DNA from: Actinomycetes bacterium
Lineage (GTDB): Bacteria; Actinomycetota; Acidimicrobiia; Acidimicrobiales; RAAP-2
DNA length: 51,049 nt
Reading direction: 5' to 3'
NCBI GenBank assembly: GCA_021779855.1
Contig: JAJXZW010000014.1
Span: 1-51,049, forward strand
Positions 1 to 8,191 of the stretch are shown piece by piece; within the stretch, counting starts at the first letter, position 1, and each line of letters opens with the position of its first letter. The translations under genes and the position numbers were made by a program. Under the pieces are notes generated by a model. That model was not told the origin of the DNA. It was given only the letters and a program-made list of their open reading frames with translations, and ran no database searches.

Positions 1-1
1 C

Positions 2-118
2 CACTCCGCCGCGGACCTGCGGCGGATCCAGCGCAGCCTCAACGGGCGTCCGCGCGCGACCCTCGGCTATATGACACCATCGGAGAAGTTCGCCGAGCTC
101 GTTGCGCTCACCGGTTGA
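2..118 (+). CDS. IS30-family transposase, C-terminal fragment (partial at window edge)
   Basis: The last 38 codons of an open frame entering from the left. The peptide contains LNGRPRATLGYMTPSEKF, the conserved C-terminal signature of IS30-family DDE transposases, and ends at the TGA at 116-118. The rest of the gene, including the catalytic DDE residues, lies outside the window, so completeness cannot be judged. The right inverted repeat of the IS would be expected within roughly 50 bp downstream but could not be identified without the left end. It may be an insertion inside or at the border of the integrative element that follows. Confidence 0.75.
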   Translation, partial: HSAADLRRIQRSLNGRPRATLGYMTPSEKFAELVALTG

Positions 119-195
119 GACCGCCCAGAGTCCAGGTGTGTATTCAAGAAGTGCGTTGGGAGTCGAAGTCGTTGTTTCACGTGACTTGCGAGACG

Positions 196-201
196 TATCT
201 T
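196..201 (+). promoter_or_regulatory. -10 hexamer TATCTT, leaderless-type
   Basis: TATCTT is followed by exactly 6 nt and an ATG at 208. The spacing matches the leaderless promoters seen elsewhere in the window. No convincing -35 element is visible. Confidence 0.45.
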
Positions 202-207
202 GTCCGC

Positions 208-294
208 ATGAATCCTCAGTCCGCCTTCGTTGATCTCAGACATCTCGTGGCCGAAGTCTCAGTCGAAAGTGATGGCGGCAATGCCGAGGCTTGA
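208..294 (+). CDS. Possible 28-codon leader ORF overlapping the DUF6941 gene
   Basis: An ATG placed 6 nt after TATCTT opens a 28-codon frame (begins MNPQSAFVDL) ending at TGA 292-294, inside the beginning of the DUF6941 gene in another frame. It has no recognisable domain. It could be a translated leader ORF coupling to the next gene, or the ATG could merely mark the transcription start. Support is only the promoter spacing. Confidence 0.25.
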   Translation: MNPQSAFVDLRHLVAEVSVESDGGNAEA

Positions 295-694
295 AGCGGC
301 CCTTTTGGCGGACAACGCGCAGGACTACGGAGGCAAGGTCTCGATCTTGGGCGGGTTCGTGTCGATGCTCAACGTGCCGGGTATCCCGTTCGCCTACGTC
401 GTGCAATTTGTGGGAAGGGTCTCGTTCAGCCGCGAAGATCTGGAAGTTCCTCACCACGTTCAAGTATCAGTGACCGACGATGGCGCCAATGCAATCTTCA
501 CCGCGAACTTGGAATTGCCGCCTGCCCCAGGTGTGCAGGATGGTGTATTCGTTGAAAAGGGACAGAACCTACTGGTGCCGCTCCTTCTGAACATTGAGGC
601 ACCAGGGATATATGTAGTTGTCCTTGAAGTGGACGGAGAGGAGTTGGCGCAGCTGCCTCTCCAGGTCGCAGTGCGAGCCGTTCCCGGGCCGTGA
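272..694 (+). CDS. DUF6941 family protein
   Basis: About 140 residues. The N-terminus (MPRLEAALLADNAQDYGGKVSILGG...) followed by alternating beta-type segments with P-rich turns resembles the DUF6941 family, whose members are small proteins of unknown function in actinobacteria and often lie in accessory DNA. I chose ATG 272 because conservation begins here; ATG 281 (MPRLEAALL) is equally possible, and the frame is open from TTG 230. There are no membrane segments, signal peptide or catalytic motifs. The last codons overlap the next gene by 4 nt (GTGA), so it is probably co-transcribed with the DUF4258/DUF2283 pair. Function unknown. Confidence 0.7.
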   Translation: MAAMPRLEAALLADNAQDYGGKVSILGGFVSMLNVPGIPFAYVVQFVGRVSFSREDLEVPHHVQVSVTDDGANAIFTANLELPPAPGVQDGVFVEKGQNLLVPLLLNIEAPGIYVVVLEVDGEELAQLPLQVAVRAVPGP

Positions 695-921
695 AGTTTC
701 GCTATTCAAAGCATGCTCAAAGGAGGATGTTGGAGCGTGGGATCAGCGAGGCGGACGTTACGCGCGCCTACGCTACCAAGAAAAATCCTCCGGGACCAGG
801 AGATAATGGTGCGCTGGTGTGGACGGGATTGGCGACGAACCGGCAATCGCTCAGTCTCGTATGCTCAGAGGAGACTGACGAGAGTGTCTTTGTGGTGACT
901 CTCTACTGGACTGACCGATAA
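691..921 (+). CDS. DUF4258 family protein (RelE-like toxin candidate)
   Basis: 76 residues beginning MKFRYSKHAQRRMLERGIS, the typical DUF4258 opening (aromatic, S-x-HA-x-x-RM-x-x-R-GI-S), followed by a variable middle and a C-terminal beta strand (VFVVTLYWTDR). DUF4258 proteins are small, structurally close to the RelE/ParE fold, and are frequently encoded next to DUF2283 proteins, as here with a 10-bp gap. The GTG start at 691 overlaps the preceding stop (GTGA). A toxin role is inferred from family and context; no catalytic residues can be assigned by eye. Confidence 0.75.
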   Translation: MKFRYSKHAQRRMLERGISEADVTRAYATKKNPPGPGDNGALVWTGLATNRQSLSLVCSEETDESVFVVTLYWTDR

Positions 922-931
922 GGACGAAGAA

Positions 932-1258
932 ATGCGATTCGAGTGGGATCTGGATGTTGACGCCCTCTACGTGCGCGTTGTCGATCAGGCGGTCGCGAAG
1001 CAAAGAGGCACCGCCCCACTCATCGCAGACCTCTCTGGGTCAGGTGAGGTGGTTGGCGTCGAGGTGCTTTTCCCTGTTCCTTTGGATGTCGTGGGGCGTT
1101 TTCTTGATGAGTTGGGCCTTCCCGCCGACCTGAGGGAGGGGATTGGGATGGCTCTAAATGAAGGGAATCTTCACGCACTCGCTAAGAGGCGCGGAGGCGA
1201 GCCGGCGACCAGGGGCGATGAGAGATCGCGGACCGAGCTGGTGTCGACAACTTGCTAG
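932..1258 (+). CDS. DUF2283 family protein (candidate partner of DUF4258)
   Basis: 108 residues; ATG 932. The first 50 contain the DUF2283 pattern: WDLDVDALYVRVVDQ, then a strand ending in DLSGSGEVVGVEVLFP, corresponding to the usual D-x-D-ALYIRL ... D-G-x-VVGIEIL. Family domains are about 50-60 residues; this one has an extra charged 50-residue tail. DUF2283 genes are commonly paired with DUF4258 genes in mobile DNA, so an antitoxin or neutralising partner role is plausible but not shown. Only 10 bp separate it from the DUF4258 gene. Confidence 0.75.
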   Translation: MRFEWDLDVDALYVRVVDQAVAKQRGTAPLIADLSGSGEVVGVEVLFPVPLDVVGRFLDELGLPADLREGIGMALNEGNLHALAKRRGGEPATRGDERSRTELVSTTC

Positions 1259-1279
1259 TCTCAGACTGAGAGAGTCTCA
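1259..1279. promoter_or_regulatory. Operator-like alternating inverted repeats
   Basis: TCTCAG-A-CTGAGA (1259-1271) is a perfect inverted repeat, and its right arm is reused in TGAGA-GAG-TCTCA (1267-1279). It lies just upstream of the -10 box of the HTH-like gene at 1295, over the expected -35 region. A very similar palindrome occurs at 1822-1836, and a further half-site CTGAGACAT is at 1314-1322. Confidence 0.5.
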
Positions 1280-1282
1280 AGT

Positions 1283-1288
1283 TATAGT
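1283..1288 (+). promoter_or_regulatory. -10 hexamer TATAGT, leaderless-type
   Basis: TATAGT is followed by 6 nt and the GTG start at 1295. The operator-like repeat 1259-1279 covers the region where a -35 box would lie, consistent with a regulated promoter. Confidence 0.55.
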
Positions 1289-1294
1289 CGGGGA

Positions 1295-1660
1295 GTGGCC
1301 CGCCGACTTCGACCTGAGACATGGGCGGAGCGCGGGTTCAAAAATGCGGGGATCCTGACTACCGCGCGCGCACTCAAGTTCGCCATGGGCTGGGGCCTGT
1401 TCACGGCCAGTGAGGGTCGAGAGCCAGAGAACATTGAGGAATACGCCGAGATAATGGGCGAGAGCCGCGCCACGGCCTACCGAGATCAGCAGGCCTTCCG
1501 CCAGGCCTACCCTGACGAGGAGTCCCCGACTCGCATGAACCGGGTCTCAGGCGCCCAGGAGCGCTACAACGAGGCCTTCCGCAAGCTCCACGACGTCCCC
1601 AAGGCCTATCGCCAGATCCAGCCGGTCCAGTACCTGCTCGGGGGATCCCCCGCCTCCTGA
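1295..1660 (+). CDS. Small HTH-like protein, function unknown
   Basis: 121 residues from GTG 1295 (leaderless arrangement). The segment IEEYAEIMGESRATAYRDQQAFRQAYP (about residues 49-75) looks like a helix-turn-helix in which EYAEIMGESRATAYRDQ forms the turn and recognition helix. No family is recognised by eye. The N-terminus is basic (ARRLRPETWAER), and the C-terminal third is charged and helical. It sits directly upstream of the Rep gene and between two copies of the same palindromic sequence, so it is a candidate repressor or copy-control protein of the element. That role is inference. Confidence 0.6.
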   Translation: MARRLRPETWAERGFKNAGILTTARALKFAMGWGLFTASEGREPENIEEYAEIMGESRATAYRDQQAFRQAYPDEESPTRMNRVSGAQERYNEAFRKLHDVPKAYRQIQPVQYLLGGSPAS

Positions 1661-1674
1661 GAGGGAAGGGGGGA

Positions 1675-1730
1675 GGCGCCCGGCGGGCCGGGGGTGCCCC
1701 TCACCCCCTGAGGGGCAACCCGGCGCCCGG
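1675..1730. repeat. GC-rich hairpin cluster, candidate replication or control structure
   Basis: Within the 154-bp gap between the HTH-like gene and rep lies a perfect 9-bp inverted repeat, TGCCCCTCA / TGAGGGGCA with a 5-nt loop (1695-1717). It is flanked by GGCGCC blocks at 1675-1680 and 1723-1728 that could extend it imperfectly. Placement immediately upstream of an HUH Rep gene makes a double-strand origin or a transcription-control hairpin possible. Confidence 0.4.
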
Positions 1731-1740
1731 ACGACCTCGC

Positions 1741-1760
1741 CCCGCCCTCAGGGCGGGTTT
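1741..1760 (+). terminator. Candidate intrinsic terminator
   Basis: CCCGCCC-TCA-GGGCGGG (7-bp perfect stem, 3-nt loop) is followed by TTT. It ends the transcription unit of the HTH-like gene just before the rep promoter. Confidence 0.5.
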
Positions 1761-1777
1761 CGCCTGTTCTCTCGCTG

Positions 1778-1806
1778 TTGACACGAATCCCGCAGCATGG
1801 TCTAGT
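1778..1806 (+). promoter_or_regulatory. rep promoter: TTGACA-17-TCTAGT
   Basis: A consensus -35 (TTGACA, 1778-1783), a 17-nt spacer and a -10-like TCTAGT (1801-1806). The Rep start codon is 8 nt further on, so the transcript would be leaderless or nearly so. Confidence 0.75.
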
Positions 1807-1814
1807 CTTGGGGT

Positions 1815-2699
1815 ATGGGAATCTCAGAATCTGAGACATACAGAACACGGGATGGGCCCTGGACGGGCTCACGCGGTGTCCCTTCACTTGATAGGGAAAC
1901 GAAACTCCCCGTGAGGGCTAGTTCAGAGGATCGTTTCTCCTTCATCTTGTACCCCGGCGTGGGCGAGGTGGTGGCGACCAGGGTCGTGAAGGAGCCTCGT
2001 TCGGGATCCCTTCGGAGTGCTGAGCCGGATGTGGAACGCTCCCACAGGAGCGCGGCGCAGCGGGCCAAGACGAAGGTTCGTCGGTACGCCCTCCACAATG
2101 GCCTGCGTTGGATGTGGACCCTCACGTACGCGGAGGCCACGTTTGACCCTGATGTTGTCGCTCGCGACGTCGAGCGGTTCTTGGCTCGGGTGGTCGCTCA
2201 TCGTGGGGGCGAACGCTTTCCGTATGTTCGGGTCTTCGAGTGGCACAAGTCGGGCCACGGGATCCACGTTCATATGGGTGTGCCGTTCTGGTTCGATCAC
2301 GCTGATCTCGGGGCCCTGTGGGGTAAGGGCTTCGTGTGGACGTCCGACATGAAGCCCAGGGGTACTGCCGCGGAGATCGGGTTCGAGAAGGCCGCCCAGT
2401 ACCTGACGAAGTACGTGGGAAAGGCGTTCGCCGTGGCTCAGGGCGGGAGACATCGCTACGAGTGCGCTCAGGGGTTCCCAGTGACGTCGTATCGCTTCCG
2501 GGCGAGGTCGATGGATGATGGAGCGGCAGCTGTTCGTGAGGCGTTCCCCAGAGGAATCCGTCGAGTCTGGAAGTCCTGGGAGCAGAAGGATTGGGAGGGC
2601 CCTGACGTGCTTCTCGTGGCCTACGACGGGCCGGCCGGGGGACCGGGGTGGGAGAGGCTCAAGGCGGGCCTTGAGGCGTATCAGGAGATTGGCCAGTGA
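1815..2699 (+). CDS. HUH-endonuclease replication initiator (Rep)
   Basis: 294 residues from ATG 1815, directly after its promoter. It shows the three rolling-circle Rep motifs in order: motif 1 WTLTY (residues 101-105), motif 2 HVH (151-153, in SGHGIHVHMGV) with the two metal-binding histidines, and motif 3 YLTKY (196-200) with candidate nucleophilic tyrosines Y196 and Y200 and lysine 199. It would nick one strand at the double-strand origin and stay covalently attached to the 5' end. The first 90 residues are basic and poorly conserved; no helicase domain is present. The last codons overlap the excisionase start (GTGA). The palindrome 1822-1836 lies inside its first codons, suggesting tight repression. 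Confidence 0.85.
   Translation: MGISESETYRTRDGPWTGSRGVPSLDRETKLPVRASSEDRFSFILYPGVGEVVATRVVKEPRSGSLRSAEPDVERSHRSAAQRAKTKVRRYALHNGLRWMWTLTYAEATFDPDVVARDVERFLARVVAHRGGERFPYVRVFEWHKSGHGIHVHMGVPFWFDHADLGALWGKGFVWTSDMKPRGTAAEIGFEKAAQYLTKYVGKAFAVAQGGRHRYECAQGFPVTSYRFRARSMDDGAAAVREAFPRGIRRVWKSWEQKDWEGPDVLLVAYDGPAGGPGWERLKAGLEAYQEIGQ
1822..1836. promoter_or_regulatory. Palindromic operator-like site at the rep start
   Basis: TCTCAGA-A-TCTGAGA is a perfect 7-bp inverted repeat with 1-nt spacer, lying about 5-20 nt downstream of the predicted rep transcription start. It shares TCTCAGA and CTGAGACAT with the sites around 1259-1322, so one DNA-binding protein probably recognises both regions. Confidence 0.5.
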
Positions 2700-2908
2700 T
2701 CGTGGACCTGGCGGCCCTACCGCTCCCGCAGCTCGTCTCCCCTGAGGTAGCGGCAACGTACCTCGGGATAAGCGCGTACACGGTCCGTCAAAGGCTGAAG
2801 CGGGGAGAAATCCCCGGGAAGAAGCACGGCTCGCGGTGGCTCATTCGCGTCCAAGATCTGGCGGACTACGTAAGGCCCAACAATCGGGGTGAGGAGCCGC
2901 AGCCGTAA
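2696..2908 (+). CDS. xis: Excisionase-type DNA-binding protein (winged HTH)
   Basis: 70 residues from GTG 2696, overlapping the rep stop. The core LVSPEVAATYLGISAYTVRQRLKRGEIPGKKHGSRWLIRVQDLADYV (residues about 13-59) is a MerR/excisionase-type winged helix of the HTH_17 group: the S-x-x-E-AA-x-YL-G-x-S helix, the TVRQRLKRGEIP recognition helix, and a basic wing. Such proteins bend DNA at the attachment site and direct integrases toward excision. The rep-xis order is that of pSAM2-like elements; the integrase is separated from it here by a nuclease gene and is convergent. Confidence 0.8.
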   Translation: MIVDLAALPLPQLVSPEVAATYLGISAYTVRQRLKRGEIPGKKHGSRWLIRVQDLADYVRPNNRGEEPQP

Positions 2909-2951
2909 CGGCTGGGTTCCTCGGGTTCGGCGGCGAGGCAGATGGTCGACT

Positions 2952-2957
2952 TATCAT
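2952..2957 (+). promoter_or_regulatory. -10 hexamer TATCAT, leaderless-type
   Basis: TATCAT is followed by 6 nt and a GTG at 2964, the same spacing as other leaderless genes here. It argues that the nuclease gene starts at 2964, downstream of the earlier in-frame GTG 2889 that overlaps xis. Confidence 0.45.
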
Positions 2958-2963
2958 CCGTCA

Positions 2964-3998
2964 GTGGTCTTGGCTCCGGGACGCACTAACACGTGGTGGC
3001 TCCTCGACTCGGCCGAAGACGTCTGGATGGAGTCAACCGACCGATCCGACCTCGGGAGAAATCTCCTTGCCCCGATTTCCTCGTCAGCTGGCCACAAGCT
3101 CGTGGAATTTGTGAGACCAGGGGATCTGGTTCTCCACTACTACCAACCCACCCGCCAAATCGTCGCGTACTCAATCGCCGAAGCGCTCCCGTTTGAGTCG
3201 GAGGTCCGTTGGCCGGATAGGGATGCCTCCCCTGCGCAGCCTGCGTACGAGGTTCCTCTGGCGCACTTCCAGTTCCTGGAGCAGCCAGTGTCGCTGGAGG
3301 AGATTCGCGCGAAGGAGTCCGACATCCGACGGATACGCGAGGCGCTCGTAAGCCTGACGCACGGTGGGCCGATGTACTTGCCGTTCGAGCTGTCCGAAAA
3401 GAGGCCGCTGAGACCAGCGCAGGGTGCCTATCTGACCAAGATGCCTCGGGCCGTCTTCGACTTGTTTCCCGAGCTCGATGAAGCGAGGGGACTCCAGGAA
3501 GCAGTTCTGACTCTGCCGGGCCATCCGAAGAGTGGGACCACGGCGCCGCCGCCGCGACCTCCAGTGGGGAGGCCTACTAAGACGGGCAGACAGTCGGACG
3601 TTCGCAAGAAGGATGCCGCCGAGAGGTACGCCATGGAGCGGGCTACGCACTTTCTCGCAGAGCTGGGCTACACGGTGCGAGACGTGAGTAACCAGGCATC
3701 GCTCGGCTATGACCTCTACGCGGTGCGGGATGGAGACGACGTTGGCTGTGAGGTGAAAGGCAGTATCGGCGACCGGATCGCGGTGGACGTCCAGGCGTCC
3801 GAGGTCGACTTTGCCCGGGAAGTGCGCGGGCCCACGCGATCGCTCCTCTACGTCGTCGACAAGATCCAGCTGGAGGAGCGCGGTGGTGAGATTCGGGGCG
3901 TAGATGGGCGGGAGAGGCCCTACTGGGACTGGCGGCCCTCGGATAGGGCAATCACCCCAACCGCCTACCGGTTCATGCTTCCGCTTCGCGAGGGCTAG
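2964..3998 (+). CDS. EVE-like / DUF3883 (NOV_C) fusion, predicted modification-dependent nuclease
   Basis: 344 residues from GTG 2964; the frame is open from 2889. Residues about 9-110 look like an EVE/PUA-type fold (NTWWLLDSAEDVW, then VRPGDLVLHYYQ and IVAYSIAEA), a class of modules that bind modified bases. After a proline-rich linker (about 192-205), residues about 218-320 match DUF3883/NOV_C, a PD-(D/E)xK nuclease-like domain: GYD with D250 and C-E-V-K with E263 and K265. Such pairings fit modification-dependent (type IV-like) restriction enzymes acting on phage DNA with altered bases. It sits between xis and int as cargo; its 3' end overlaps the convergent integrase gene by 26 bp. Nuclease function is inferred from domains. 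Confidence 0.75.
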   Translation: MVLAPGRTNTWWLLDSAEDVWMESTDRSDLGRNLLAPISSSAGHKLVEFVRPGDLVLHYYQPTRQIVAYSIAEALPFESEVRWPDRDASPAQPAYEVPLAHFQFLEQPVSLEEIRAKESDIRRIREALVSLTHGGPMYLPFELSEKRPLRPAQGAYLTKMPRAVFDLFPELDEARGLQEAVLTLPGHPKSGTTAPPPRPPVGRPTKTGRQSDVRKKDAAERYAMERATHFLAELGYTVRDVSNQASLGYDLYAVRDGDDVGCEVKGSIGDRIAVDVQASEVDFAREVRGPTRSLLYVVDKIQLEERGGEIRGVDGRERPYWDWRPSDRAITPTAYRFMLPLREG

Positions 3999-5145
3999 GG
4001 GCCCTCAGGGATCGGGATAGCACCTCGGAGGCGGCACGCTGGCGGTCGAGTGTGGGGTGCGCGTAGGTACGGAGGGTTAGTGCGGGATCGGCGTGACCAA
4101 GGAAGTCGGCCGTATCGCGCGCGGAGACTCCCGCGGCGAGTAGCTCTGTAGCGGCGAGATGCCTCAGGGAGTGGAGGTGAATCCCTGGGAGCGCCAGAGC
4201 GTCGGCTGCCCTCCTGACCTCGCGAGACACGAGGTCGAGGCTGATCGGCCGCGATCCGTCCGGGACCCCAGAGAAGATGAAGGAATCGGCGCCGAGGTGA
4301 ACCCCCCAGTCAATGGCGAGCGTTCGCCGACTGTCGCGCCACACCTTCAGCCACGCCACGACCTCGTCAACCAGGTGAATTTGTCGGCTGCGCCCAGTCT
4401 TGGTCGACTTGACCCCGACGTGCCCGCTCGACGAGTAGGCGCTGGCGTCGATTGTCAGAGACGGTCCTTTGATTGACGACCAGCGGAGTGCCGCCACCTC
4501 CCCGCGTCGGCATCCGGTGACGGCAGCGAGGAACACGAACGCGCCGACCACCTCGTTTCGTGATTGGCAGAGTGAGATGAGGCGCTGGACGTCCTCGGGG
4601 GAGGGGATGTCTAGGGGCTTTGGCGTGGCCCGGGGGAGGGTGGTTCGTGCGGAAACGTTCTGGGTGATCCAGTCCCAGCGAATGGCCTGGTTGAGAGCAG
4701 CGGATATGACGTTGTGGACGTTGCGAATGGTGCGTGGGCTCTTTCCGTCCTTCGACAGGGAGGTGTAGAGCGAGTCGAGGTGGTAGACGCTTAGCTTGCC
4801 GATCTTGATGCCGCCGAGCGTGGGTTCTATGTGCGTCGTGATGAGGCTTCGGTAGCCGTTCAGCGTGGTTGGGGACCGCCCGCGATCCTCCTGGAAGCGC
4901 ATCCACTCCGAGAGAAGTTGGCTGAGGGTCGCCGTGGAGTCGTTGGGCGCGTCCTCCCGCGAGGCGAGAATGCGTCGGGCTTCCTTCTCCGCTTCGGTCT
5001 TCGTCTTCGCCGTGAGGGTTACGGCGCGTCGCTGGGGTCTTCCCGTGACAGGGTCAGGTCCAGCGCTGTATCGGTAGAACCATCGGCCGCTCCCTTTGGG
5101 TCGTTCGATCAGGGAGCCTGTACCATGTGGGCGCCGCTTGGCCAT
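3973..5145 (-). CDS. int: Tyrosine recombinase integrase
   Basis: 390 residues, full length for phage/ICE integrases. N-terminal arm-binding region (1-65, basic with SGRWFYRYSAG), SAM-like core-binding domain (about 72-165) and catalytic domain (about 178-385). The catalytic set is complete: R213 (TGCRRGE), K249, H325 and R328 (HSLRH), H351 (LGHADP) and Y361 (LRTYAHP). The ATG at 5145 is 49 bp from tRNA-Arg, and TAGGGT sits 6 nt upstream, so a leaderless transcript is likely. It would catalyse integration and, with the excisionase, excision of the element. It is convergent with the nuclease gene, unlike pSAM2 where int follows xis. Confidence 0.9.
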   Translation of the reverse strand: MAKRRPHGTGSLIERPKGSGRWFYRYSAGPDPVTGRPQRRAVTLTAKTKTEAEKEARRILASREDAPNDSTATLSQLLSEWMRFQEDRGRSPTTLNGYRSLITTHIEPTLGGIKIGKLSVYHLDSLYTSLSKDGKSPRTIRNVHNVISAALNQAIRWDWITQNVSARTTLPRATPKPLDIPSPEDVQRLISLCQSRNEVVGAFVFLAAVTGCRRGEVAALRWSSIKGPSLTIDASAYSSSGHVGVKSTKTGRSRQIHLVDEVVAWLKVWRDSRRTLAIDWGVHLGADSFIFSGVPDGSRPISLDLVSREVRRAADALALPGIHLHSLRHLAATELLAAGVSARDTADFLGHADPALTLRTYAHPTLDRQRAASEVLSRSLRAPSPREAEA

Positions 5146-5151
5146 ACCGGG

Positions 5152-5157
5152 ACCCTA
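5152..5157 (-). promoter_or_regulatory. -10 hexamer TAGGGT for int, leaderless-type
   Basis: On the minus strand TAGGGT is separated by 6 nt from the int ATG. The direct repeat at 5166-5184 lies just upstream, where integrase or a regulator could occlude the promoter. Confidence 0.4.
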
Positions 5158-5165
5158 GCCCTAAC

Positions 5166-5184
5166 TTGGATCACGATTGGATCA
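5166..5184. repeat. TTGGATCA direct repeat, possible integrase arm or operator site
   Basis: TTGGATCA occurs at 5166-5173 and 5177-5184, spaced 11 bp, one helical turn, in the 49-bp gap between int and the tRNA. Arm-type integrase sites or an int operator would be expected here. The function is inference. Confidence 0.4.
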
Positions 5185-5194
5185 AAGGCACGGA

Positions 5195-5266
5195 GCCCCC
5201 GTAGCTCAGGGGATAGAGCATCGGTTTCCTAAACCGTGTGCGCAGGTTCGAATCCTGCCGGGGGCG
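5195..5266 (+). tRNA. tRNA-Arg (anticodon CCT)
   Basis: A full cloverleaf: acceptor GCCCCCG (5195-5201) pairs with CGGGGGC (5259-5265) plus discriminator G; D-arm GCTC/GAGC; anticodon stem TCGGT/ACCGT with loop TTCCTAA, giving anticodon CCT; T-arm GCAGG-TTCGAAT-CCTGC (5242-5258). CCA is not encoded. It is the insertion landmark for the integrase. The element lies on its 5' side, so the intact tRNA 3' end faces the chromosome; no second copy of its end is visible in the window. Confidence 0.95.
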
Positions 5267-5276
5267 CGAAGGAGCA

Positions 5277-5337
5277 CGGGTGACGACACCCGCTAGGACC
5301 TGGACGTGCTTGCGCCCGGCCCGCCCAAGAGCGGGCC
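5277..5337 (+). terminator. Two small hairpins after tRNA-Arg
   Basis: CGGGTG-ACGA-CACCCG (5277-5292) and GGCCCGC-CCAAGA-GCGGGCC (5318-5337) are perfect stems in the gap before the next gene. Neither has a T tract, so a terminator role for the tRNA transcript is only possible. Confidence 0.35.
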
Positions 5338-5347
5338 TCACCAGGAG

Positions 5348-5353
5348 CATAAT
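5348..5353 (+). promoter_or_regulatory. -10 hexamer CATAAT, leaderless-type
   Basis: CATAAT is followed by GGGCCC (6 nt) and the ATG of the 2-hydroxyacid dehydrogenase at 5360. Confidence 0.5.
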
Positions 5354-5359
5354 GGGCCC

Positions 5360-6526
5360 ATGGTCGAGCGCAGTTTGAACCTCGTGCCGGCGTCGGTGAT
5401 GGACTACCGCACCCTGGCGCGACGTCGGCTGCCCCGCCAGGTCTTCGACTACCTCGACGGCGGTGCCTTCGCGGAGTCGACCATGGCCGCCAACGTCGCC
5501 GACCTCGCTGCGCTGCACTTCCGCCAGCGGGTCCTGCGCGACGTCTCGGCGCGCACGATGTCGACGACCGTATTGGGACAGCCCTTGTCGATGCCGGTGC
5601 TACTCGCGCCTGTCGGATTCGGCGGACTCATGGCCCGACGGGCAGAGGCCCAGGCCGCGCGGGCCGCGGCCGCGGCGGGGGTGGCCTTCTGCGAGTCGAC
5701 ACTCTCGGTGTGCGACCTCGAGGAGGTCACCGCGGCCAGTGGTGCCGCGCCGTGGTTCCAACTCTACGTCATGAAGGACCGCGGTGTCGCCGAGGCGTTG
5801 ATGGCCCGCGCCGCTGCCGTCGAGGTGCCGGTGCTCGTGCTCACGGTGGACCTGCCGGTGGTGGGCCAGCGCTACCGTGACGCGCGCAACGGCGTCTCAG
5901 GTCGTCCCGGACGGCTCGGGTCGCTGCGCCGAGCACTCGACGTCGCGGCCCACCCGATGTGGGTGCGTGACGTGGCCCTCTCGGGCCGGCCCCTCACCTT
6001 CGGCAACCTGGCGGCCGTGATGGGGGCGGCTGCCGTCCCGAGCGACTTCCAGTCGTGGGTGGCCCGCCAGTTCGACCCCACGGTCACCTGGTCCGACATC
6101 GACTGGGTCCGCGCCCACTGGTCGGGGCCCCTCGTCCTCAAGGGCATCCTCGACCCCGACGACGCCCGCGAGGCCGTGGCTCGCGGCGTGGACGGCCTCG
6201 TCGTCTCCAACCACGGAGGACGTCAACTCGATTCGGTACCCTCGACGATCGAGGCGCTGCCACGGATCGTCGAGGCCGTCGATGGGCGAGCCGAGGTCCT
6301 CATGGACGGCGGGGTGCGTAGCGGCCTCGACGTGATGAAGGCGCTGGCCCGCGGGGCGCGCGCCGTCATGGTCGGGCGGGCCTGGGCCTACGCCGTGGCC
6401 GGCCGCGGCGAGCGTGGCGTCGCGCACGTGCTGCGCGTGATGCGCGAGGAGATCGCCGTGACGATGGGCCTCACAGGACTCTCCGACTTGGCCGAGGTCT
6501 CACCCGAGTCGCTCGTCGAGGGCTGA
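5360..6526 (+). CDS. lldD: FMN-dependent alpha-hydroxy acid dehydrogenase (lactate dehydrogenase-like)
   Basis: 388 residues, usual length for the family. A TIM-barrel flavoenzyme that oxidises 2-hydroxy acids such as L-lactate. Seen: FDYLDGGAFAE near the N-terminus, LLAPVGFGGL (81-90), WFQLYV (132-137), the catalytic lysine in LVLKGI (K261), and the active-site VVSNHGGRQLD with H285 and R288, followed by the FMN phosphate-binding DGGVRSG and VMVGRAWAY. I chose ATG 5360 because it follows a -10 box by 6 nt; an upstream in-frame GTG at 5306 would add non-conserved residues. Substrate (lactate, glycolate or other) is not determinable. It is convergent with the por operon, 39 bp away. Confidence 0.85.
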   Translation: MVERSLNLVPASVMDYRTLARRRLPRQVFDYLDGGAFAESTMAANVADLAALHFRQRVLRDVSARTMSTTVLGQPLSMPVLLAPVGFGGLMARRAEAQAARAAAAAGVAFCESTLSVCDLEEVTAASGAAPWFQLYVMKDRGVAEALMARAAAVEVPVLVLTVDLPVVGQRYRDARNGVSGRPGRLGSLRRALDVAAHPMWVRDVALSGRPLTFGNLAAVMGAAAVPSDFQSWVARQFDPTVTWSDIDWVRAHWSGPLVLKGILDPDDAREAVARGVDGLVVSNHGGRQLDSVPSTIEALPRIVEAVDGRAEVLMDGGVRSGLDVMKALARGARAVMVGRAWAYAVAGRGERGVAHVLRVMREEIAVTMGLTGLSDLAEVSPESLVEG

Positions 6527-6565
6527 CGCGCCGCGAGGGTGTCGGCCGGTCCCCGTGGACCCCTC

Positions 6566-8191
6566 TCAGATCCTCTCGGGGACCATCTCGATCGCCCCGC
6601 AGGGGCACTCCGCGACGCAGATCCCGCACCCCTTGCAGTAGTCGTAGTCGATCTCGTAGCGGTCACCGCCGCCCAGCTTGATCACCGCGTTGTCGGGGCA
6701 GACGCCGAAGCAGTTGTCGCACTCGAAGCAGTTGCCGCACGACAGGCAGCGCCGCGCCTCGAACAGCGCGTTGTCCTCGGTGAGACCACCGATGACCTCT
6801 TCGAAGTTGGTCTGGCGCCGGATGCGTTCGAGCTCGGGCCGCTCGGTGCGTGGGGCGTCCGCGTAGTACCAGGTGTTGAGCCGCTCGAACGCGGCGAGGG
6901 GGTGGCGCTCGGGGCGCTCGAAGGACTGGCCGCCGAGGTAGGCGTCGATGCCCTTGGCCGCGCGCTTGCCGTGGCCGACGGCGACGGTGGCCGTGCGGTC
7001 CGAGGGCGCGACGTCCCCGCCGGCGAAGACGCCGGGCACGTCGGTCATCATCGACTCGCCGACGGGCACCACGCCATCGGCCACGTGGACCTCGCTGCCC
7101 TCGAGGAGCGAGAGGTCGGTGTCCTGGCCGAGCGCCAGCACCAGGGCGTCGGCGTCGAGCTCCTCGAGCTCGCCGGTGGGCTCGGGGAACCCCTCGGCGT
7201 TGAGCGCCATCTTCTCGATGAGGAGGCGCTCGCCCTCGAAGCGCTCGATGGTCGAGAGCCAGCGCACCGTGACGCCCTCGCCCAGGGCCTGCTCGACCTC
7301 CTCGGCGTGGGCCGGCATCTTGGCGCGGTTGCGGCGGTACACGATGGTCGCGTCGGTCGCCCCGAGCCGACGCGCGGTGCGCGCGGCGTCCAGCGCGGTG
7401 TCGCCGCCGCCGTAGACCACGACGCGCCGGCCGAGCAGGGGCGGGTCGTCCTCGGCCACCCGGTGCAGGAACGTGACGGCGTCGACCACTTTGGCGGAGT
7501 CGCCGGCCGGGATCGAGACGCGCCGGCCGAGCTGGGCGCCCACGGCGAGGAAGACGGCGTCGGCGGAGAACTCGTCGCGCGCGGCGGCGATGTCCTCGAC
7601 CGAGCGGCCGGTCACGACCTCGACGCCCATCTCGAGGACGCGCTCGATCTCGGCGTCGAGGACCGCGCGCGGCAGGCGGTAGGCCGGGATGCCGTAGCGC
7701 ATCATGCCCCCGAGCCGCGCCGCCCCGTCGACCAGGGTCACGGCGTGGCCCGCGCGGCGCAGGTGGTAGGTGGCCGACAGGCCGGCCGGCCCGGCCCCCA
7801 CCACGAGGACCCGGCGCCCGGAGTCGGGCCCGGGCTCGCCCAGGCGCCAGCCGCGCGCGATGGCCGTGTCGCCGAGGAACCGCTCGACGGCGTTGATACC
7901 GACGGCCTCGTCGACTCGCACGCGGTTGCACGCGGTCTCGCAGGGGTGGAAGCAGACCCGGCCCATGATCGCCGGCAGCGGGTTCTCCTCGACCAGGGTC
8001 CGCCAGGCGGTCTCGTAGTCGCCCGACTCGGCGTGGTAGAGCCAGCGCTGGATGTTCTCGCCCGCAGGGCAGGCGTCGTTGCACGGAGGCAGGCGGTCGA
8101 CGTAGACGGGCCGCTCCACGCGCCAGGAGCCGGTGTGGTTGGCCCGGCTCGAGCCGACGGGCAGGGTGATCGCGAAGGGCCGGTCCATCAC
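6566..8191 (-). CDS. porD: GltD-like NAD(P)/FAD oxidoreductase with C-terminal 2[4Fe-4S] ferredoxin, por-operon subunit
   Basis: 541 residues. The N-terminus has the GltD-type cysteine motif (PPCNDACPAGENIQ and FHPCETACNR), then an FAD-binding VVGAGPAGLSA (about 130), and a second Rossmann motif VVVYGGGDTALDAA. The C-terminal 60 residues form a bacterial ferredoxin (CLSCGNCFECDNCFGVCP and CKGCGICVAECPCGA). Such fusions act as delta/electron-transfer subunits in pyruvate/2-oxoisovalerate:ferredoxin oxidoreductases, linking the ferredoxin pool to NAD(P)H. GTG 8191 overlaps the porB stop (GTGA); ATG 8188 is the next codon. Last gene of the operon. Confidence 0.8.
   Translation of the reverse strand: MMDRPFAITLPVGSSRANHTGSWRVERPVYVDRLPPCNDACPAGENIQRWLYHAESGDYETAWRTLVEENPLPAIMGRVCFHPCETACNRVRVDEAVGINAVERFLGDTAIARGWRLGEPGPDSGRRVLVVGAGPAGLSATYHLRRAGHAVTLVDGAARLGGMMRYGIPAYRLPRAVLDAEIERVLEMGVEVVTGRSVEDIAAARDEFSADAVFLAVGAQLGRRVSIPAGDSAKVVDAVTFLHRVAEDDPPLLGRRVVVYGGGDTALDAARTARRLGATDATIVYRRNRAKMPAHAEEVEQALGEGVTVRWLSTIERFEGERLLIEKMALNAEGFPEPTGELEELDADALVLALGQDTDLSLLEGSEVHVADGVVPVGESMMTDVPGVFAGGDVAPSDRTATVAVGHGKRAAKGIDAYLGGQSFERPERHPLAAFERLNTWYYADAPRTERPELERIRRQTNFEEVIGGLTEDNALFEARRCLSCGNCFECDNCFGVCPDNAVIKLGGGDRYEIDYDYCKGCGICVAECPCGAIEMVPERI

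Follow-up and report, generated by a model that had tools for sequence, protein, structure and literature searches.

A two-domain protein encoded beside an integrase gene

The window, the whole stretch of 51,049 nucleotides that we analyzed, is the start of contig C42 of an Actinomycetes genome assembly. A stop-free frame takes in positions 2964–3998 of its forward strand and encodes a protein of 344 amino acids, which pairs an EVE-like N-terminal half with a C-terminal NOV_C (DUF3883) domain; on the evidence of the frame, Pfam, a structural model, and conservation, we consider it a candidate modification-dependent nuclease. An upstream extension of the same frame, as far as a GTG at 2889, is possible. 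Because the closest relative, from the same genus and 60% identical, has an ATG at the place matching 2964 (L062:8762), the GTG at 2964 is the supported start. PHROGs and NCBIfam returned no match to the protein, and PADLOC returned only TmtA (E = 0.0021). Searching the genome assembly turned up no second NOV_C gene; the same search gave matches in 3 of 14 control genomes.

Upstream on the same strand lie genes for a rolling-circle replication initiator (1815–2699, +; Pfam REP_ORF2-G2P, 2.6e-12; PHROG 3419, 1.6e-22) and a small helix-turn-helix protein (2696–2908, +; Pfam HTH_17, 1.2e-11) that may act as an excisionase. Downstream, on the opposite strand, is the gene of a 390-residue tyrosine integrase (3973–5145, −; Pfam Phage_integrase, 2.1e-20; PHROG 1 integrase, 1.9e-73). 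The remaining frames encode a small, perhaps DNA-binding protein with a weak PHROG match (E = 0.059) and none in Pfam (1295–1660, +), a DUF2283 protein scoring just under the Pfam cutoff (932–1258, +; 22.4 bits against 23), a DUF4258 protein (691–921, +; Pfam, 2.2e-9), and, near the start of the window's island part, a DUF6941 protein (230–694; Pfam, 1.1e-18). The adjacent DUF4258 and DUF2283 genes (691–1258) are possibly a pair of the toxin-antitoxin type.

The gene is carried by an island in tRNA-Arg(CCT)

An intact tRNA-Arg(CCT) gene (5195–5267, +) forms the right junction of the island. Nucleotides 1–41 of this tRNA recur, with one mismatch, as a partial copy on contig C24 of the same genome (G000:C24:239–279, −). 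Positions 239–340 of C24, which include the tRNA fragment, match the flank lying 5′ of an intact tRNA copy in another genome (G033) at 88%, and positions 3324–8000 match the same flank at 92%, with most of the intervening 3 kb unmatched; on the other side, the right flank in the window matches G033, G001, and G004 from 5347 onward at 87%–89%. Given the tRNA copy and the flank matches on C24 and in the window, the most likely entry point of the island is the 5′ half of tRNA-Arg(CCT), and the island comprises 238 bp on C24 and window positions 1–5194, with a gap between them. Its size is at least 5.4 kb. A direct-repeat search of window positions 1–6000 did not see the island ends because the other end is on C24. 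The window's island part has a G+C content of 62.7%, against 73.8% for 5268–51049. The first-pass annotation had placed the gene on a small mobile element, and the tRNA copy and flank matches support this well.

Two TTGGATCA repeats lying 11 nt apart beside the tRNA (5166–5184, +), picked out by eye, are candidate integrase arm sites, and the pair is seen with identical spacing beside the tRNA fragment on C24. The contig may break within an IS30-like element that ends at window positions 2–115 (+). The frame there, cut by the contig start and tentatively the end of an IS30-like transposase, aligns with a portion of a long frame of this genome (45% identity, E = 0.0032) that resembles an IS30 transposase by eye; Pfam found no match in its 38 residues. 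After the EVE-NOV_C gene in a further genome (G1004) come an integrase remnant related to that of the window (43 residues, 49%), then transposase-like frames and tRNA-Arg(CCT). Separately, we observed that 80 bp (5268–5346) lie between tRNA-Arg and the shared stretch beginning at 5347 in the window, versus about 700–750 bp in G001 and G004.

The N-terminal half is predicted to adopt an EVE fold

We modeled the full-length protein with AlphaFold, using the window protein together with eight relatives. The model is of moderate confidence (mean pLDDT 76, pTM 0.57), with residues 83–90 and 191–210 below 50. VIA-align, a re-ranking of Foldseek's own matches and no separate search, placed the EVE half of the modification-dependent endonuclease VcaM4I (6yex) at the top, aligned to model residues 16–187 (Z = 15.7, 143 residues aligned, 2.6 Å). 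Stand-alone EVE structures followed at Z of about 10–11, the next EVE entry after VcaM4I scoring 11.3, and Foldseek concurred on EVE (E = 3.6e-6). Together with a profile match and conservation, these alignments delimit an EVE (PUA-like) domain at about residues 10–188 (2991–3527, +).

Pfam EVE (PF01878) reaches only 16.7 bits on the window protein by itself (residues 12–119; cutoff 23), and one full-length relative (L052) exceeds the cutoff at 24.3 bits. In a first family alignment of 10 members, weak EVE matches (E up to 1) appeared in 5, the best at E = 0.0078; a flagellar family, flgK_1st_1, the matches of which we take to be chance, hit 4 of the 10 at E = 0.0009, better than the best EVE match. 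Searched against solved structures, the single protein sequence gave no match, and the 10-member profile reached VcaM4I at E = 0.062, after an unrelated antibody chain at 0.056. A 12-member profile placed VcaM4I first, with E = 3.3e-4 for the whole chain and 0.0049 for the matched stretch. The first-pass annotation had read an EVE/PUA-like pattern in this half, proposing structure prediction and Foldseek as the check and the absence of such a barrel as grounds for abandoning the idea. The predicted structure contains the barrel, matched by both the VcaM4I and the stand-alone EVE domains, and the pattern stands on structure and on the 12-member profile, while the window protein itself stays under the Pfam cutoff.

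The base pocket of VcaM4I is described as being formed by P24, W82, and Y130, with Q128 filling the gap (PMC7897488). In our family, P37, W83, and Y156 are invariant in all 12 full-length members and Q153 is present in 11. VcaM4I P24 is in register with P37 in two profile alignments; for Q128 and Y130, the pairing with Q153 and Y156 is confined to another stretch of the 10-member profile alignment, one that by itself is not significant. W83 may correspond to VcaM4I W82, an assignment that we keep tentative because the spacings differ (46–55 residues from the proline here versus 58 there; 68–77 from the tryptophan to the glutamine versus 46). For the other VcaM4I base contacts, Q10, T11, and E15, we found no clear match in the EVE half.

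The C-terminal half is a PD-(D/E)xK-like domain with invariant residues

NOV_C (PF13020) was detected by Pfam above its cutoff (24.5 bits at residues 219–287; cutoff 22.1), and it was present in 10 of 10 members of the first family alignment. With the model and fold matches, we assign a PD-(D/E)xK-like nuclease domain to about residues 206–344 (3579–3995, +). In the full-length model, residues 209–344 superimpose on the effector nuclease of SPARDA and on the archaeal resolvase Hjc at Z of about 11 (VIA-align). Modeled alone with 23 relatives (pLDDT 90.9), the domain gave the same two neighbors (SPARDA nuclease, Z = 10.1; Hjc, 10.0), followed at lower scores by NhoI (8.2), DpnI (7.4), R.SwaI (6.8), HincII (6.2), and EcoRV (6.2). 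Foldseek returned nothing under E = 0.001 for the domain alone, an Hjc being best at 1.4e-3; in a viral structure library, one match fell under that value, an unnamed 141-residue protein (6.7e-4). Searched against solved structures, the NOV_C profile matched Hjc only, at a non-significant E of 0.11, with Hjc D33, E46, and K48, presumably its catalytic residues, standing opposite D250, E263, and K265.

The codons of these residues occupy 3711–3713, 3750–3752, and 3756–3758 (all +). D250 is placed by the model just ahead of one strand and E263 and K265 in the next; the half combines a PD-(D/E)xK core fold with the D...ExK residues. All three, as well as E220, are invariant in the alignment of 12 full-length members. 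Their equivalents are also invariant in 24 of 24 NOV_C domains, a chosen set of 12 from the EVE family and 12 others, and in all of the 27 NOV_C proteins that have other N-termini. The two sets overlap by 12 proteins. The 27 were obtained by searches with the EVE-NOV_C family and are not a random sample; they omit three loci in which the motif script found no frame (L009, L044, L047), one with masked letters (L056), one matched over its N-terminal part only (L053), one that is cut short (L032), a near copy of L037 (L038), and two at the same places as L008 and L006 (L041 and L043). The first-pass annotation had named a D...E-x-K core of DUF3883/NOV_C and numbered its residues D250, E263, and K265; the Pfam match, fold, and invariance bear out the core, and the numbering is correct.

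The same nuclease domain is joined to other readers

In a relative from Actinophytocola gossypii (L015), an extra domain precedes the two halves of the family and matches solved chains of the sulfur-binding type (7ccd, 5zmo, and others; E = 1.2e-21); Pfam finds NOV_C only, and no EVE, in this protein. Another protein (L042) consists of the N-terminal part of an McrA chain (5zmm, E = 1.1e-21) joined to NOV_C, and L039 and L008 resemble it. We take the chains 5zmm, 5zmo, 7cc9, 7ccd, and 7ccj to be domains of ScoMcrA and SprMcrA; published abstracts describe such structures. Among the 27 NOV_C proteins (E up to 0.01), MrcB_N is fused to the domain in 8, Helicase_C in 2, and an EVE match is present in 1. 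Since it is also joined to Helicase_C, NOV_C is not tied to base readers. A possible SRA-like N-terminus in L010 yielded no solved relative and is not counted among the readers.

A nuclease that stays constant while its reader changes provides the best support for a type IV restriction reading, and stronger support than genomic context does. The first-pass annotation had proposed this reading, and the EVE fold, the PD-(D/E)xK fold, and the reader fusions all speak for it, with restriction itself a prediction. In the models, the two predicted folds would make up the reader-plus-nuclease layout of type IV restriction.

A predicted single-protein, modification-dependent nuclease

We think it likely that the protein is a type IV (modification-dependent) nuclease acting as a single protein and that its gene serves defense on the island, cleavage and phage defense being predicted activities. 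The EVE barrel would scan DNA and flip out a modified base, as in VcaM4I. The flipped base is predicted most likely to be a cytosine with a C5 group, held in a pocket lined by P37, Y156, and perhaps W83, with Q153 filling the gap. Base binding would then bring or release the C-terminal NOV_C domain, a putative metal-dependent nuclease of the PD-(D/E)xK type, and D250, E263, K265, and probably E220 would serve it in cutting the DNA. A methyltransferase partner would be unnecessary, provided that the mark is absent from the DNA of the host. As cargo of an integrative island in tRNA-Arg(CCT) that also encodes the integrase, the HTH protein, and the rolling-circle initiator, the nuclease may protect both host and island from phages and other elements with modified DNA.

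Gene neighborhoods and alternative readings

We compared the neighborhoods of 16 loci by blastp (E = 1e-6), with genes taken from a simple script and not from a gene caller. Every locus has the gene itself (in broken form in L019 and L021), and among the matches listed other groups occur in at most 3 of the 16, which counts for stand-alone action. On the window's island part, none of the eight frames tested is a helicase or a methyltransferase. The family's genomic context had been put forward earlier as a check on a defense role: known or candidate defense genes do lie within about 4 kb in 4 of the 16 loci, a count picked by eye with no background control. Neighbors include Cas3 and Cas8e (L016), a SIR2 protein of the candidate defense family PDC-S65 (L021), an AAA protein with restriction-type PADLOC matches (L014), and DrmA, DrmB, a DruE-like helicase, and UvrD-type helicases (L061). 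A recombinase-like frame close to the gene in L060 gave no PADLOC match.

One locus counts against the single-protein reading. In L061 (9260–18920), frames for a 2,124-residue DruE-like helicase, a UvrD-type helicase, and the EVE-NOV_C protein follow one another on a single strand, separated by about 1 bp and about 30 bp (starts by the simple script), the gene of interest standing third; DrmA and DrmB are on the opposite strand. This arrangement suggests a multi-gene, possibly combined, defense system. A UvrD-HRDC helicase frame also lies upstream of the gene in the closest relative (L062). The protein might accordingly be a subunit and not a whole enzyme, supplying reader and nuclease to a helicase, DruE-like or UvrD, whose gene lies at another place, in the manner of Druantia- or DISARM-like systems. 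With no helicase among the tested island frames and no widely shared neighbor among the matches listed, we consider such a role unlikely for the window protein.

Less probable still is a target of RNA or of any nucleic acid, with the EVE domain sensing modified or foreign nucleic acid and NOV_C cutting RNA or host DNA unselectively, in an abortive infection like that of the SPARDA nuclease. Structurally, that nuclease ranks with the nearest matches (Z = 11.0 and 10.1); the NOV_C fusions to DNA-sulfur and McrA/McrB-type readers nevertheless point to DNA, and the EVE half is nearest to that of a DNA-cutting enzyme. We give very little credence to a service for the island itself, in junction resolution or in nicking during rolling-circle replication or integration: the resemblance to Hjc would then be functional and the gene does sit between those of the HTH protein and the integrase, but the blastp comparison ties no other window gene to a relative's neighbor among the matches listed, tblastn in L062, the one relative locus tested, did not find the initiator or the HTH protein beside the gene and found the integrase only as a remnant, and a role of this kind does not fit with modified-base readers being joined to that nuclease.

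Beyond the single-protein nuclease that we prefer for the window, we lean, with less assurance, toward a wider proposal. NOV_C may be a general nuclease that is exchanged among type IV restriction proteins of a group as yet without a name, in which one conserved effector of 140 residues is mounted on modified-DNA readers of three kinds or more (EVE, sulfur-binding/ScoMcrA-type, and MrcB_N). It would usually be encoded as a single gene, be wired to a DruE-like helicase in some genomes, and, in the window's genus, travel on short islands whose attachment site is the 5′ half of tRNA-Arg(CCT).

Relation to known systems

VcaM4I, an EVE-HNH modification-dependent endonuclease (PMC7897488), is like the window protein in being a short two-domain protein with an N-terminal EVE domain of the same fold. 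P24 is matched, and Q128 and Y130 are matched in a weak stretch; W82 and the Q10, T11, and E15 contacts have no clear counterpart here. The nuclease differs, being HNH in VcaM4I and PD-(D/E)xK-like NOV_C in our protein. EVE-PD(D/E)xK fusions, which share the general layout of the window protein, appear in Bell, Wolf, and Koonin (2020; PMC7641849) as putative type IV enzymes and predicted modification-dependent nucleases; the words DUF3883, Mrr, and vein do not occur in the main text of that paper.

The type IV enzymes ScoMcrA and SprMcrA contain a sulfur-binding domain, and relatives of our protein carry that domain or the N-terminal part on NOV_C. Those enzymes use an HNH nuclease, and a sulfur-binding domain was not found in our protein. 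The closest solved folds of the NOV_C half (Z of about 10–11), the effector nuclease of SPARDA and Hjc of archaea, have other partners and other tasks; the D, E, and K of Hjc are in register, with sequence likeness that is not significant.

DUF3883 is called a novel REase domain in a table of PMC3710099, where it occurs on SNF2 helicases in restriction-like operons: the domain is the same by name, and its partner there is a helicase and not a base reader. PMC10609329 places DUF3883 "presumably" among type II restriction gene groups, and class 1 helicases of DISARM are reported to carry an EVE-like domain (PMC12458937). The main texts of further defense and type IV papers that we word-searched do not contain DUF3883, and our literature search, which took in main texts, largely from outside the subscription journals, found seven papers that mention DUF3883 and none that combines it with "EVE domain". 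Both the parts and the logic are therefore already in print, EVE-PD(D/E)xK enzymes and DUF3883 as a nuclease domain both having been published; the EVE and NOV_C pair was not found in the literature searched, and the pairing is little studied.

If our reading is true, DUF3883/NOV_C, a widespread domain of uncertain role, gains a job as the cutting part of many modification-dependent defense proteins, and its several natural readers offer a ready set for finding the modified bases that each of them sees. Enzymes of this kind are of use in mapping DNA modification, and they help to account for phages altering or losing particular modifications.

Distribution of the family

Other members of the 12-member alignment are 28%–60% identical to the window protein. 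A scan of genome contigs yielded ten loci, in Micromonospora, Cellulomonas, Actinophytocola, four Nonomuraea, Rhodococcus, Demequina, and Agromyces. In 3 of these 10 (L019, L020, and L021), the frame is broken or cut short; they were left out of the family alignments, L019 and L021 being kept among the 16 loci compared. Three close relatives of L016 (L011, L017, and L018) were dropped from one family alignment. Profile searches gave matches in 23 of the 394 genomes searched from one class, with 4 full-length cases (E = 1e-8), and in 8 of 296 genomes of the window's class, with 3 full-length cases including the window's own gene (E = 1e-6). Among 100 genomes of the same genus or order, one match was found besides the gene itself (residues 207–305, E = 2.4e-4). 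In one genome of the window's class (G932), L053 contains the N-terminal half of the family only, at profile positions 5–129 in a frame of 231 residues.

Plasmid records gave nine matches, of which one is full length, in an 11.9-Mb Nonomuraea record labeled as a plasmid. Phage records contained no match to the EVE-NOV_C protein. Viral contigs gave none when searched with the single protein and three when searched with the family alignment, all aligned over the NOV_C part only. One of these three contigs (IMGVR_UViG_3300017963_007645) encodes, at L025 8080–9465, a protein outside the window's family that has NOV_C and a sub-cutoff EVE match (18.5 bits).

Other probable islands at tRNA-Arg(CCT) in the genus

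Four further loci of the same genus contain stretches of about 2–4 kb bounded by copies of the tRNA 5′ half (L128 1538–8654, L129 1709–3444, L130 1544–3689, and L132 797–4803). Each stretch has tRNA-Arg(CCT) or its 5′-half copy at one end and another 5′-half copy at the other. Their contents vary: a HipA and HTH pair in L130, AbiEi/AbiEii and Fic in L132, Fic alone in L129, and, in L128, an integrase and a TPR protein followed by a second stretch with LMWPc and SBF proteins. Neither the Pfam-tested frames nor tblastn with the window's integrase revealed an integrase in L129, L130, or L132. The site looks like a genus-wide attachment site for small, partly integrase-less islands with toxin or defense cargo. 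At L128 5885–5989, a piece of 35 residues, which shares 57% identity with the beginning of the integrase in the window, adjoins a 5′-half tRNA copy and is a remnant of a related island.
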